Assembly: GCA_014239155.1 (NCBI GenBank)
Contig: JAAZZQ010000022.1
Coordinates: forward strand, 62,001-126,000
Length of the DNA: 64,000 nt
Reading direction: 5' to 3'
Source: Lachnospiraceae bacterium
GTDB lineage: Bacteria; Bacillota; Clostridia; Lachnospirales; Lachnospiraceae
The position numbers and the translations under genes are program-made. The notes under the pieces were generated by a model. It ran no database searches, was not told the DNA's origin, and saw only the letters and a list, made by a program, of their open reading frames with translations. Of the stretch, positions 8,916-14,810 are shown piece by piece. Position 1 is the first letter of the stretch; every line of letters begins with the position of its first letter.

Positions 8916-10502
8916 TCATAGCGTTTCATTTAATTGTGCTGCAATGCTTCCCAGAAGTTCCCAAGCGGCGTCGCGCTCTCGCTTTTGTTCAGGGGTTAGT
9001 TGCTCATATGGGCAGAGCATAGGATGCTGTCTGTCAATATCGTTTCTGGTGGGACCATAAGTCCAGTTGTAATAAGTGTAAAAACGCAGCCAGCGCGTGT
9101 GGTCTAACCTGCGATATGTATCAAGTACGGTCGCGGACTTTTTGGTCTCACAGTATCTTTGATATGCTTTTTGTGTAATTTGGGGTGTCAGTTCTGTAAT
9201 ATGTTCATCTTGCATAAGAACTCGTATTTTCATAAGAATATGGTCGGCGGCGGTTATCTTTGATTCTCGGTGAAAGGCGTCAAGCTCATCCCAAGTTTTG
9301 GTGGGATAGGAAACAGTTTTACAAAATATCTCATTGATAATAATAGCAGCCTTGTTTAGTGAAGTTCGCATAATCTGGTTTGGCGTGTAGATTTCTTCAT
9401 TTGTTCCAAAATAGGTTACACCGGGCGTTTTTCGATTACTATGCAAGTGAATGTCTCCGCATATTTGGTAGTAGCTGTTTAGGCGCCAATAGATATTCCA
9501 GCCCTCTGGTTCATTATCAGGGCAGATAATAATACGATCAGCCTGCGCCATAACTGCATGGTTCAATTCCCATAATTCCTTATGAAAAATAAGGGAATCG
9601 GTTGTCTCAGATGTTTGGTTTAGAGAAAACGCTTCATGCAAATGATTATGTGTGGCAAGAAATCCCTCTGCATTGCCAAAAATGTGATATGCCACATGCT
9701 GGTCCACAGAGATAATATTGGTTAAAATCGCTCGCTTAAGAATGCAGCGACCATAGTTGCCAAACCCAATAATAACAATTGTCTTTTCCGCATTGCACAG
9801 TGGTTTGGAATGCCAGTATTGTCTAGCGCAGCAGTCATAACTGTGGAAAAAATTAATATTTCCAGAAAGATGATCTTGCCCGTTGGTAGTGCGAGCATAT
9901 ACTTCCACTGGCAATGCGTGCAAATCGACTGCCCGCGAGTTAGTGCCAATATCGTTTTCTTTCATTAAAAAAATTTTACATATAGGACCAATATTTTTCT
10001 TGTGTGCTACAATTCTGGCTGGCGAAGCGTTGATAAACAGGCATGGAAAGTCCGGAAATTCGGTCTGTTCATCGGTCTTTTCTCCAAAAATAATAACGGT
10101 GTCTGGCTCCTCCCGATGAATATTTGCAGCGAGCGTGATGGATTCCACACCGCAGTCTGCAAAGTAGTACCAATTTTTCTTTCGCTGAAAACTAAGTAAA
10201 AAGAGCGGGAGTCCTTCGCTGGTGACAAAGGAAACGGCAGCGCCAAACAGCGTCATCATAATACCTGCGGACATTAGTAGGAAAATAACACCTACTGTTT
10301 TTCCCAAAGGTGTAACTGGTGTTAAGTCGCCATATCCAACTGTGGTTAACGTAACTAGCGAGTACCAAAATGCGTCTTTAAAAGACCGAATTGTCGCTGT
10401 GCTGTCACCATGTTCTGACAGACATAAAATAGTAAGCAGACCAATATAGATTGTAAGCAGAAAAATTGTCATATACAGATAGATTTTATGTTTTCTTTTC
10501 AT
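8916..10502 (-). CDS. Two-TM potassium channel with Rossmann (TrkA/RCK-like) and RyR domains
   Basis: A 528-residue membrane protein. The first helix is near residues 8-28; a pore helix and selectivity filter (TLTTVGYGDLTP) lie near 50-62, then a second helix to about 90. A cytoplasmic part contains VIIGFGNYGRCI near 235, a nucleotide-binding Rossmann motif of TrkA-N/RCK type, and possibly an earlier degenerate Rossmann unit at 110-220. Residues about 395-415 hold AADHILMKIRVL. The C-terminus from about 450 (HTRWLRFYTYYNWTYGP, then HPMLCPYEQLTPEQKRERD) reads as an RyR domain. It should be a K+ channel gated by a nucleotide-type ligand. Its start overlaps the 56-residue ORF upstream by ATGA, so the two are translationally coupled. 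Confidence 0.85.
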   Translation of the reverse strand: MKRKHKIYLYMTIFLLTIYIGLLTILCLSEHGDSTATIRSFKDAFWYSLVTLTTVGYGDLTPVTPLGKTVGVIFLLMSAGIMMTLFGAAVSFVTSEGLPLFLLSFQRKKNWYYFADCGVESITLAANIHREEPDTVIIFGEKTDEQTEFPDFPCLFINASPARIVAHKKNIGPICKIFLMKENDIGTNSRAVDLHALPVEVYARTTNGQDHLSGNINFFHSYDCCARQYWHSKPLCNAEKTIVIIGFGNYGRCILKRAILTNIISVDQHVAYHIFGNAEGFLATHNHLHEAFSLNQTSETTDSLIFHKELWELNHAVMAQADRIIICPDNEPEGWNIYWRLNSYYQICGDIHLHSNRKTPGVTYFGTNEEIYTPNQIMRTSLNKAAIIINEIFCKTVSYPTKTWDELDAFHRESKITAADHILMKIRVLMQDEHITELTPQITQKAYQRYCETKKSATVLDTYRRLDHTRWLRFYTYYNWTYGPTRNDIDRQHPMLCPYEQLTPEQKRERDAAWELLGSIAAQLNETL

Positions 10503-10669
10503 AGGGTTTGGTCTCCTATTTTAAGAAAATGGCTGTCTGTAATGCAAAAAGTCTCTTGACGAAAAGACAAACGACAGACAGGTCGCTTGCTTGCATCCTG
10601 AATCTCATTTACAATTTCTTGACAGCATTGAATTTTTTCCAGATTTGTCTGTTCTGTTGCATTTTGCAT
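10499..10669 (-). CDS. Small 56-residue protein coupled to the potassium channel gene
   Basis: An ATG at 10669 with a strong GGAGGA site seven bases upstream opens a 56-codon frame that ends in TGA at 10501-10499, overlapping the channel ATG by four bases. The protein is soluble and acidic to neutral, begins MQNATEQTNLEKIQCC, and contains four cysteines (two adjacent, then PVC and FCI). No family was recognised. A good promoter (10776-10804) lies upstream, so this is the first gene of the channel operon. It may be a regulatory subunit or a leader peptide that sets channel translation. The coding call rests on the ribosome site, the coupling and the promoter. Confidence 0.65.
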   Translation of the reverse strand: MQNATEQTNLEKIQCCQEIVNEIQDASKRPVCRLSFRQETFCITDSHFLKIGDQTL

Positions 10670-10914: not shown

Positions 10915-10967
10915 ATTTCCCATGAGTGGATAAGGAACTGTAGAAAGTGAGAGGAATACGCAAAACT

Positions 10968-11606
10968 ATGAACTATTATTTTATTGACTATGAAAATGTT
11001 CATGCAGATGGTTTTATTGGGATAGAAAACTTAGGTGCAGATGATATTATCTGTGTGATGTATACAGAACAGAGCAAGACATTTTCACTGGAGTTGGTGG
11101 AGAAGATTCTAAGACAGAAGGCAAAATTGGAGTCTTATAAGGCGGGAACAGGCGCCAAAAATTCACTAGATTTTCAGCTGGCGTCTTATCTGGGCTATAT
11201 GATTGCAAAAAGTGAGGATGCAGAAGATTGCTTTTATATTGTATCGCGGGATACAGGATTTAATCATCTAGTTGATTTCTGGGCAGAACGCAATGTCAAG
11301 GTAAAAAGGGTCGCTAATTTTGAAGGTGGTGAGAAAGATTCCAAGACGTTAATGTTTACAGAACAACCAAAATCAAAAGTAAAGAGCAAATCAAAAGTTT
11401 CTGATTCAAATAAAGCGACAAAGGAAGAACTTTTGCAGTATCTTACGGAGGAAGAATATTCGGACAAGATACTTGAGATATTTAATAGCTACAAGACAAA
11501 AGTAGCAATCAATAATGGTCTCAGCAAGGAGTTTCGAGATAGTCAAAAGAGCAGTGCAATCTATAAAAAATTAAAAGCTCTCTTAAAAGAGAAACAGAAA
11601 TCTTAG
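10968..11606 (+). CDS. PIN/NYN-like domain protein
   Basis: A protein of about 212 residues. The first 110 residues form a PIN-like nuclease fold: MNYYFIDYENVH supplies the first acidic residues, NSLDFQLASYLGY the middle Asp, and SRDTGFNHLVDFW the last acidic motif. This pattern is common in small clostridial PIN/NYN proteins. A Lys/Ser-rich linker (about 130-150) leads to a helical C-terminal tail of unknown role, with KKLKALLKEKQ at the end. RNA cleavage is likely from the family, but the target is unknown. A GTG start at 10947 is also possible; the ATG was chosen because the domain starts right there. Its promoter diverges from that of the channel operon. Confidence 0.75.
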   Translation: MNYYFIDYENVHADGFIGIENLGADDIICVMYTEQSKTFSLELVEKILRQKAKLESYKAGTGAKNSLDFQLASYLGYMIAKSEDAEDCFYIVSRDTGFNHLVDFWAERNVKVKRVANFEGGEKDSKTLMFTEQPKSKVKSKSKVSDSNKATKEELLQYLTEEEYSDKILEIFNSYKTKVAINNGLSKEFRDSQKSSAIYKKLKALLKEKQKS

Positions 11607-13010: not shown

Positions 13011-14810
13011 ATGATGACAGAATTACAGGAATTGTTGGAGGCTGTAAATGGTGAGATTTATGGTGTATGGTTTTTGATTGGCGCTGCGTTGGTATTCTGG
13101 ATGCAGGCGGGATTTGCAATGGTGGAGGCAGGCTTTACCAGAGCAAAAAACACAGGAAACATTATTATGAAAAATCTAATGGATTTCTGTATTGGCACAT
13201 GTACTTTTATTTTGATTGGATTTGGATTGTTACTTGGCGAGGATTTATTGGGATTTATCGGAAAGCCTGGTTTTGATATTTTCACAAACTACGCGGATTT
13301 TGATTGGTCAAATTTTGTATTTAACTTGGTATTTTGTGCCACTACAGCAACGATTGTTTCTGGAGCAATGGCAGAGCGCACAAAATTTCTTTCTTACTGT
13401 GTATATTCCGGTGCAATTTCGGCGCTGATTTATCCGGTTGAGGCGCATTGGATTTGGGGCGGAGGTTGGCTTGCCCAGATGGGGTTTCATGATTTTGCGG
13501 GTTCCTGCGCGATACATATGGTAGGCGGCATTAGCGCCCTGATTGGCGCAAAGATTTTGGGACCACGTATCGGTAAGTTTACAAAGGATAAGCAGGGAAA
13601 TATTACAAAAGTAAATGCGTTCCCGGGGCATAATCTTACAATTGGTGCACTTGGAGTTTTTATTCTTTGGCTTGGCTGGTATGGATTTAATGGTGCGGCA
13701 GCAGTTAGTTTACCAGAACTTGGTTCTATTTTTGTGACAACGACAATTTCCCCGGCAATCGCTACGGTTGTGTGTATGGTATTTACTTGGATAAAATATG
13801 GAAAGCCGGATATTTCCATGTGTCTAAATGCATCGCTTGCAGGGCTTGTGGCTATCACAGCAGGCTGTGATGTAACAGATGCTTTTGGTTCAATTGTAAT
13901 TGGTGCAGTAGCTGGGCTTTTGGTGGTGTTTGGCGTATGGTTTTTGGATTATAAGCTGCACATTGATGATCCAGTGGGTGCTGTGGCAGTGCACTGTCTA
14001 AACGGAATCTGGGGAACGATTGCTGTCGGGCTGTTTGCGACAGACACTGCGCCAGCATTTGCAAGAGGATATGGTGACGGTGTGGAGTTTGGTGCAAATC
14101 AGATTTGCGGTACTGGGCTTTTCTATGGTGGCGGTGTGAAACTGTTAGGAATGCAGCTTGCTGGAATGGTCTGTGTGATTCTTTGGACAGTGCTCACAAT
14201 CACAATTACTTTTCTGGTTATCAAAGCACTTTTTGGGCTTCGTGTCAGCGAGGAGGAAGAAATTATTGGGTTAGATGCCACAGAACATGGTTTGCCCTCT
14301 GCCTATGCAGGATTTTCTATGATGGATATCTCAAATAGTATGATTATGGAGGAGAACGAAAACACACAACTTGGACCAGAAAACTATGAGGAAGCTACAG
14401 AGACACAAAAAAATGCTGCGATTAAGGTTGCGCAAGTGGCTATGTCATCAGCTTCTGGAATCTATAAGGTGGTTATTATTGCAAAACTTTCCAGATATGA
14501 TGTGTTGCGCAAAGCAATGAATAGTATTGGTGTGACAGGCATGACAGTGACACAAGTTATGGGGTGTGGTATTCAAAAGGGCGCAGGAGAGAAATATCGT
14601 GGTGCAGAGATTGATGCGACACTGCTTCCGAAGGTGAAAGTCGAAGTGGTGGTGTCAACAATCCCAGTGGCAAAAGTGATAGAATCTGCTAAGGAAGTGC
14701 TTTACACTGGGCATATTGGTGACGGAAAGATTTTCGTATATAATGTTGATAAAGTGGTGAAAATCCGTACAGGAGAAGAGGATATGGCAGCGCTTGCCGA
14801 TGTGGAATAA
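13011..14810 (+). CDS. amt: Ammonium transporter fused to a PII signalling domain
   Basis: A 599-residue fusion. Residues about 10-410 are an Amt/MEP channel with eleven membrane segments; family marks include MQAGFAMVEAGF near 28, GAMAERTKF near 118, VHMVGG-like IHMVGGISALIGA near 168, FNGAAAV near 225 and DDPVGAVAVHCLNGIWGT near 325. After a linker, residues about 478-595 form a PII (GlnB/GlnK) domain starting YKVVIIAKLSRYDVLRKAM, with the T-loop region KGAGEKYRGAEID keeping the usual Tyr. The domain ends GDGKIFVYNVDKVVKIRTGE. The PII part should sense ATP/ADP and 2-oxoglutarate and block the channel in cis. Such fusions are known but uncommon. Confidence 0.93.
   Translation: MMTELQELLEAVNGEIYGVWFLIGAALVFWMQAGFAMVEAGFTRAKNTGNIIMKNLMDFCIGTCTFILIGFGLLLGEDLLGFIGKPGFDIFTNYADFDWSNFVFNLVFCATTATIVSGAMAERTKFLSYCVYSGAISALIYPVEAHWIWGGGWLAQMGFHDFAGSCAIHMVGGISALIGAKILGPRIGKFTKDKQGNITKVNAFPGHNLTIGALGVFILWLGWYGFNGAAAVSLPELGSIFVTTTISPAIATVVCMVFTWIKYGKPDISMCLNASLAGLVAITAGCDVTDAFGSIVIGAVAGLLVVFGVWFLDYKLHIDDPVGAVAVHCLNGIWGTIAVGLFATDTAPAFARGYGDGVEFGANQICGTGLFYGGGVKLLGMQLAGMVCVILWTVLTITITFLVIKALFGLRVSEEEEIIGLDATEHGLPSAYAGFSMMDISNSMIMEENENTQLGPENYEEATETQKNAAIKVAQVAMSSASGIYKVVIIAKLSRYDVLRKAMNSIGVTGMTVTQVMGCGIQKGAGEKYRGAEIDATLLPKVKVEVVVSTIPVAKVIESAKEVLYTGHIGDGKIFVYNVDKVVKIRTGEEDMAALADVE

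Follow-up and report, generated by a model that had tools for sequence, protein, structure and literature searches.

GsuK of Geobacter sulfurreducens is a K+ channel with a two-transmembrane (2-TM) pore followed by two RCK domains, and it was reported to be activated by ADP and NAD+ and inhibited by Ca2+ (PMC3510474). The R12 domain of the ryanodine receptor RyR3 was reported to bind AMP-PCP or ADP, with Trp880 stacking on the adenine (PMC12627627). RyDEP, a RyR protein of mycobacteriophage DyoEdafos, was described in a 2026 preprint as cleaving 2'/3'cADPR, with H75 and D117 acting at the terminal ribose and in catalysis, W78 at the adenine and H100 at the phosphates (PMC13232231). The same source reported that RyDEP dimerises via helices 1 and 4, that the other homologues tested did not cleave, and that six of eight tested bound signals. 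The oomycete PKDRR channels are cation channels with RyR domains near the C-terminus, and the paper describing them reads RyR domains, including those in RyR1, as protein-protein interaction sites (PMC4820453). In the literature searched, whose coverage left out most subscription papers, we found neither a bacterial tandem-RCK K+ channel with a RyR domain nor RyR-TIR operons.

A stretch of 64,000 nucleotides from a gut bacterium of the Lachnospiraceae (the window) was analysed, and it encodes a GsuK-like channel with a putative RyR sensor. The window protein shares with GsuK a 2-TM K+ pore and two following RCK domains, and GsuK was its best Foldseek match; however, no RyR domain is named in the GsuK abstract, and activation by ADP and NAD or inhibition by Ca2+ may be carried over to the window protein by analogy only (PMC3510474). 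It resembles R12 of animal ryanodine receptors in fold and profile and has the adenine-stacking Trp and the pocket His residues, whereas R12 is a tandem pair in a Ca2+-release channel and the window protein has a single copy in a bacterial K+ channel. RyDEP and the window RyR domain were 39% identical over 56 residues (tblastn, E 9e-5), with equivalents of H75, W78 and H100 in the window; RyDEP is described as a soluble counter-defence protein with D117, whereas the window domain is fused to a channel and has R510 (PMC13232231). The PKDRR channels differ in being eukaryotic, with a pore of the PKD/TRP type and a tandem of two RyR domains, and the accessible text of their description mentions no RCK domain (PMC4820453). 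As for Thoeris/TIR defence, RyR proteins of the same bacterial family, one of them pore-bearing (locus L129), adjoin TIR genes, but no TIR gene stands beside the window channel in the same operon.

Architecture of the channel and its RyR domain

The channel gene lies on the minus strand at 8916..10502, starts with ATG, has its own GGAG ribosome site and encodes 528 aa comprising a 2-TM pore, tandem RCK-like domains and a RyR domain. The preliminary description had proposed a K+ channel with a TVGYGD pore, and this was confirmed by a match to Ion_trans_2 over residues 15-94 (Pfam, E 5.4e-13). The pore module (residues 1-95; 10218..10502, minus strand) consists of TM1, a pore helix, the filter and TM2, as assigned from Pfam and from the helices of the AlphaFold model at residues 3-31, 41-53, 65-78 and 81-104. 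The TVGYGD filter (residues 54-59) is intact, lies between the two TM helices and was kept in all 30 proteins of alignment A1.

The AlphaFold model of the whole channel, made with an alignment of 30 proteins, had a mean pLDDT of 86.3. Strands and helices followed the pore at residues 111-365, as in a tandem RCK arrangement. A Rossmann part had been expected and was found, but as two RCK-like Rossmann domains and not as the single segment proposed; they span approximately residues 105-429 (9216..10190, minus strand; Foldseek). The GxGxxG motif at residues 246-251 is intact, with G246 and G251 kept in 30/30 and G248 in 27/30 proteins of A1. When the whole model was compared with known structures by Foldseek, GsuK occupied ranks 1-10, including its ADP- and NAD-bound entries, with a best E of 1.6e-7. 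Slo2.2 and MthK stood lower in the list, mixed with adenosylhomocysteinases, which have the common Rossmann fold. The whole-chain TM-scores against GsuK were low, at 0.29-0.42, with rmsd of 9.9-11.1 Å; in these models such values would fit domain movement and do not prove that the gating ring is the same as that of GsuK.

The C-terminal RyR domain covers residues 430-528 (8919..9215, minus strand; Pfam, Foldseek and PDB profile search) and includes H468, W471, H493 and R510. RyR (PF02026) scored 31.2 bits over residues 460-520, above its gathering score of 27.4 (Pfam, E 2.7e-7), and a profile of the domain matched PDB entries of ryanodine receptors at E 2.2e-19. The AlphaFold model of the domain, made with 24 sequences, had a pLDDT of 88.5 and recovered the RyR fold. 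Its top Foldseek matches were entries of the Bacteroides thetaiotaomicron RyR protein (4n05, 6ug4, 3nrt and 6uag; best E 9.5e-4, TM 0.5-0.57), and human RyR3 R12 appeared from rank 18. Because Pfam, the PDB profile and AlphaFold with Foldseek all gave matches, the RyR assignment is more than chance, and the RyR-like C-terminus of the preliminary description stands.

The residues H75, W78, H100 and D117 of RyDEP were verified in the DyoEdafos sequence itself and aligned to H468, W471, H493 and R510 of the window protein, respectively. Among the 30 proteins of A1, H468 was kept in 30, W471 in 27 and H493 in 25, and H468 was replaced by Tyr in two other channels (genomes G012 and G373). By sequence, the pocket is thus not strictly conserved, with W471 lost in 3/30 and H493 in 5/30. 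Position 510 was Arg in 25, Cys in two, and Gly, Phe and Asp (L098) in one protein each. The catalytic dyad of RyDEP (H75 and D117) is incomplete in the window protein, in which H468 is present, R510 stands at D117 and D511 is adjacent. D511, kept in 30/30, could fill the role of the RyDEP Asp given a register shift of one residue; as the equivalent of D117 it was rejected, with the ungapped alignment placing R510 there. As a guess, Arg510 may favour a ligand that bears a phosphate at that spot over free ribose.

Instead of sensing for gating, the RyR domain might act as a glycosidase in the manner of RyDEP, or have a structural role only, as a module for protein-protein interaction. In favour are the cleavage of cADPR isomers by RyDEP and its dimerisation, the invariance in A1 of the His that corresponds to its catalytic one, and the description of RyR domains in RyR1 as interaction sites. 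However, the position of the second catalytic residue holds Arg in the window protein, and just one of the 30 proteins of A1 has Asp there; binding was also commoner than cleavage among the RyDEP homologues tested (PMC13232231). An enzyme or a passive module would also explain fusion to an RCK-gated pore less well, and we consider this alternative quite unlikely.

For a gating sensor, the reading preferred here, the likeliest ligand of the window channel is an adenine nucleotide, given that ADP and NAD+ activate GsuK and that R12 binds adenine nucleotides. Four subunits would assemble around a single K+ pore, their RCK domains making up a gating ring, and the RyR domains of neighbouring subunits would pair as in RyR R12 and RyDEP. 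The paired domains would clamp on an adenine nucleotide of the ADP/ADP-ribose class. This clamp would pull or relax the ring, and K+ flux would then follow the nucleotide state of the cell.

The 56-residue ORF upstream of the channel

An ORF of 56 aa with an ATG start lies directly upstream of the channel gene (10499..10669, minus strand) and was found only in the window and in two copies that are 99% identical (L031 and L100). The good ribosome site, GGAGG eight bases ahead of its ATG, and the ATGA shared with the channel start are as the preliminary description had them. The ORF had no NCBIfam or PADLOC match, and its two Pfam matches were far below cut-off (E 0.15 and 0.19).

The same description had taken the encoded protein for an obligate partner or leader of the channel. 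A good ribosome site would suit such a role, and so would a terminator-like hairpin inside the ORF (10567-10590, minus strand; one found against a shuffle mean of 0.2), which may possibly be a species-level attenuator. Three changes separate the ORF from its L031 copy, two of them synonymous by eye, a number too small for testing. Conservation, however, speaks against a partner. The upstream analysis used 60 of the 68 orthologue loci fetched, eight being omitted where the match did not start at residue 1, and the ORF was missing from 59 of the 60; the exception was L031, whose channel is 99% identical. A tblastn search of the DNA surrounding the 60 channel starts (at most 630 bases for each) likewise gave L031 only, with nothing else below E 0.76. 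L100 came from the genus search and is outside the 60 loci. The window's own genome was the only one of 200 family genomes with the ORF, which was absent from the 199 others, and viral contigs gave no match.

The overlap itself carries no information on coupling, because the channel start reads ATGA in 60/60 loci and the overlap is therefore automatic. An ORF of at least 30 aa ended at this ATGA in nine of the 60 loci, and only that of L031 was related to the 56-aa ORF. In 27 of the 60 loci (L031 among them), the 150 bases that precede the channel start held a promoter-like site scoring at least 9.5, compared with 6% of single-base shuffles, the cut-off having been chosen ad hoc. The best score of the window in the same interval was 7.7, and one promoter-like site lay further upstream, no more than expected by chance. 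The promoter scan supports rejection of the small ORF as a partner, more weakly than conservation does. The small ORF is thus not conserved upstream of the homologous channels, and the obligate partner or regulatory leader, already largely refuted, was rejected on conservation as very improbable. The ORF may be translated, as a species-level, lineage-specific upstream ORF and not as a conserved partner subunit.

RyR and TIR genes in Lachnospiraceae

Of 397 Lachnospiraceae genomes, 56 held RyR (PF02026), at 62 places in total, and 39 of these 56 held TIR_2, at 98 places. Of the 62 RyR places, 23 had TIR_2 no more than 5 kb away, in 20 cases on the same strand; with genomes of 3 Mb and an even spread, approximately 0.37 would be expected. 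The 62 places are not independent, as some genomes hold two. With the 52 RyR places over the Pfam cut-off, the count was 17/52. A TIR ORF on the same strand lay within 165 bases of 14 of the 62 places. As a control, none of 81 K+-channel pore places without RyR had a TIR within 5 kb among the TIR places listed; these were 81 of 82 pore-only places, G168:C10 being omitted, and G168 is not among the listed TIR_2-bearing genomes. Together with the fold and profile matches and the phage RyR protein reported to cleave cADPR isomers (PMC13232231), these 23 places support the link between RyR domains and nucleotide signalling that had been proposed.

The association differed by class: TIR lay within 5 kb of only one of 20 pore-bearing RyR places, compared with 22 of 42 others. 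The one pore-bearing case was L129 (genome G058), a pore-RCK-RyR channel 32% identical to that of the window, with Ion_trans_2 and RyR over cut-off. A gene for an 847-aa TIR protein begins two bases after the stop of this channel; TIR_2 and ThsB_TIR were over cut-off in it, and propeller-like matches were present below cut-off. Outside the family, genome G556 encodes a pore-less RyR protein adjoining a TIR gene. Neither the four TIR-linked RyR proteins scanned nor the window channel matched PADLOC-DB 2.0.0 (0/5).

Nineteen RyR proteins of approximately 460-530 aa began with a short hydrophobic stretch and lacked a K+ filter motif, and many of them adjoin TIR genes (examples are L117, L118, L119, L121, L122, L123, L124, L149 and L150). 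They look like forms of the channel whose pore is missing or of another kind. A membrane protein of 705-707 aa, by eye a large ion channel, adjoins a RyR membrane protein in two loci (L160, 1780-8229; L126, 241-4302); in L160 it had no Pfam match and a TIR gene follows directly. Two RyR proteins had other neighbours than TIR_2, namely DUF4062 (L122, 3214-7044) and a large unclassified protein (L144, 73-3810), and either neighbour might make the signal in place of TIR.

That TIR and RyR genes are associated in Lachnospiraceae suggests TIR signals as the input of RyR domains, and in the case of L129 the domain is part of a true K+ channel. We tentatively propose a system, plausible but not one we hold to be probable, in which a TIR-made ADP-ribose-type signal is read by a RyR membrane protein, a K+ channel in one branch, and in which the window channel is a re-tuned relative outside such operons. 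A system of this description was not found in the literature or PADLOC models searched.

The solo clade of the window channel

In a midpoint-rooted tree of 45 proteins, the pore-bearing proteins formed one clade of 24 (support 100/98). Within it, the window protein was one of the 18 rows of a solo clade (support 100/100), beside which stood a group of six that includes the TIR-linked L129, with support of 94/63, which is not strong. Asp was present at the D117 position of RyDEP in 6/6 of the L129 group. In the 15 solo-clade places of the family sample, the same position was Arg in 12 and Asn, His and Lys in one each.

The window channel might be an unlinked Thoeris-like effector, for which a distant TIR protein would supply a cADPR-type signal when phage infect the cell; binding of this signal to the RyR domain would open the pore and drain K+. 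The family-wide counts of RyR places near TIR genes, the TIR gene that follows the L129 channel and three TIR_2 matches in the window genome would agree with this. Two of the three, away from the window on contigs C48 and C56 (L175 and L177), were bSEFIR (PADLOC, E 6.7e-82) and TIR-TM (E 5.7e-75), and the third is a 136-aa ORF below the Pfam cut-off near genes that are restriction-modification-like by eye; these identities count against the effector reading. So does the single TIR neighbour among the 20 pore-bearing RyR places, and so does Arg at 510 in place of the ribose-contacting Asp. A profile built from 25 TIR_2 segments found no TIR-like ORF in the flanks of any of the 68 orthologue loci (up to 6 kb, often less), and none adjoins the window channel gene (L174). 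TIR_2 occurred in 6/15 solo-clade genomes compared with 88/200 family genomes (Fisher p 0.80), the 15 overlapping the 200; of these six, G111 and G298 had it below cut-off, and the only TIR of G058 adjoins its other RyR channel. None of the nine solo-clade genomes without TIR_2 had ThsB_TIR. The searches covered TIR_2 and ThsB_TIR, and incomplete genomes could hide TIR genes. An unlinked effector is regarded as unlikely.

No neighbour cluster was common to more than 22 of the 68 orthologue loci anywhere in the flanks, the commonest being by eye an ABC transporter, and a conserved operon partner of the solo channel was rejected on this count. An AzlC/AzlD-like pair (by eye) was seen near some channels. 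In the window, a gene for PIN7, which is nuclease-like, lies divergent from the channel (10947-11606), and its cluster is also near the channel in L031 and L032. An ammonium transporter fused to a P-II domain is encoded at 13011-14810. Outside the family the channel is rare: at 1e-30, with at most three candidates scored per genome, the two matching genomes among 398 of the phylum were that of the window and G556, which holds the pore-less relative. A viral origin of the channel was rejected, with no relative in viral contigs; the window RyR domain alone was matched by 163 of 50,697 phage records at E ≤1.

We lean, if not strongly, towards a stand-alone, ligand-gated tandem-RCK K+ channel of the GsuK/Slo type with a C-terminal RyR sensor, akin to those of TIR-linked, Thoeris-like membrane proteins but re-tuned, and with the 56-aa ORF not its partner. 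Since TIR neighbours are absent from this clade and Arg occupies the position of the catalytic Asp of RyDEP, the sensor would most likely read a general or different adenine nucleotide, reporting for example on energy, NAD or osmotic stress.

In animals, a direct action of cyclic ADP-ribose on ryanodine receptors has long been in question. Studies of this action have been called for (PMC13232231). A single bacterial RyR-K+ channel of 528 residues with TIR-linked relatives is a small, reconstitutable system for the binding of ADP-ribose signals and their effect on a pore, and a link between such signals and ion channels thereby becomes testable in bacteria. The TIR-RyR gene pairs, in turn, are a source of candidate defence effectors. 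The association of TIR with RyR in Lachnospiraceae promises more than the window channel itself: if the proposed system is true, the gating of a K+ pore by a cADPR-family signal would parallel, in bacteria, the disputed pathway from cADPR to the ryanodine receptor.
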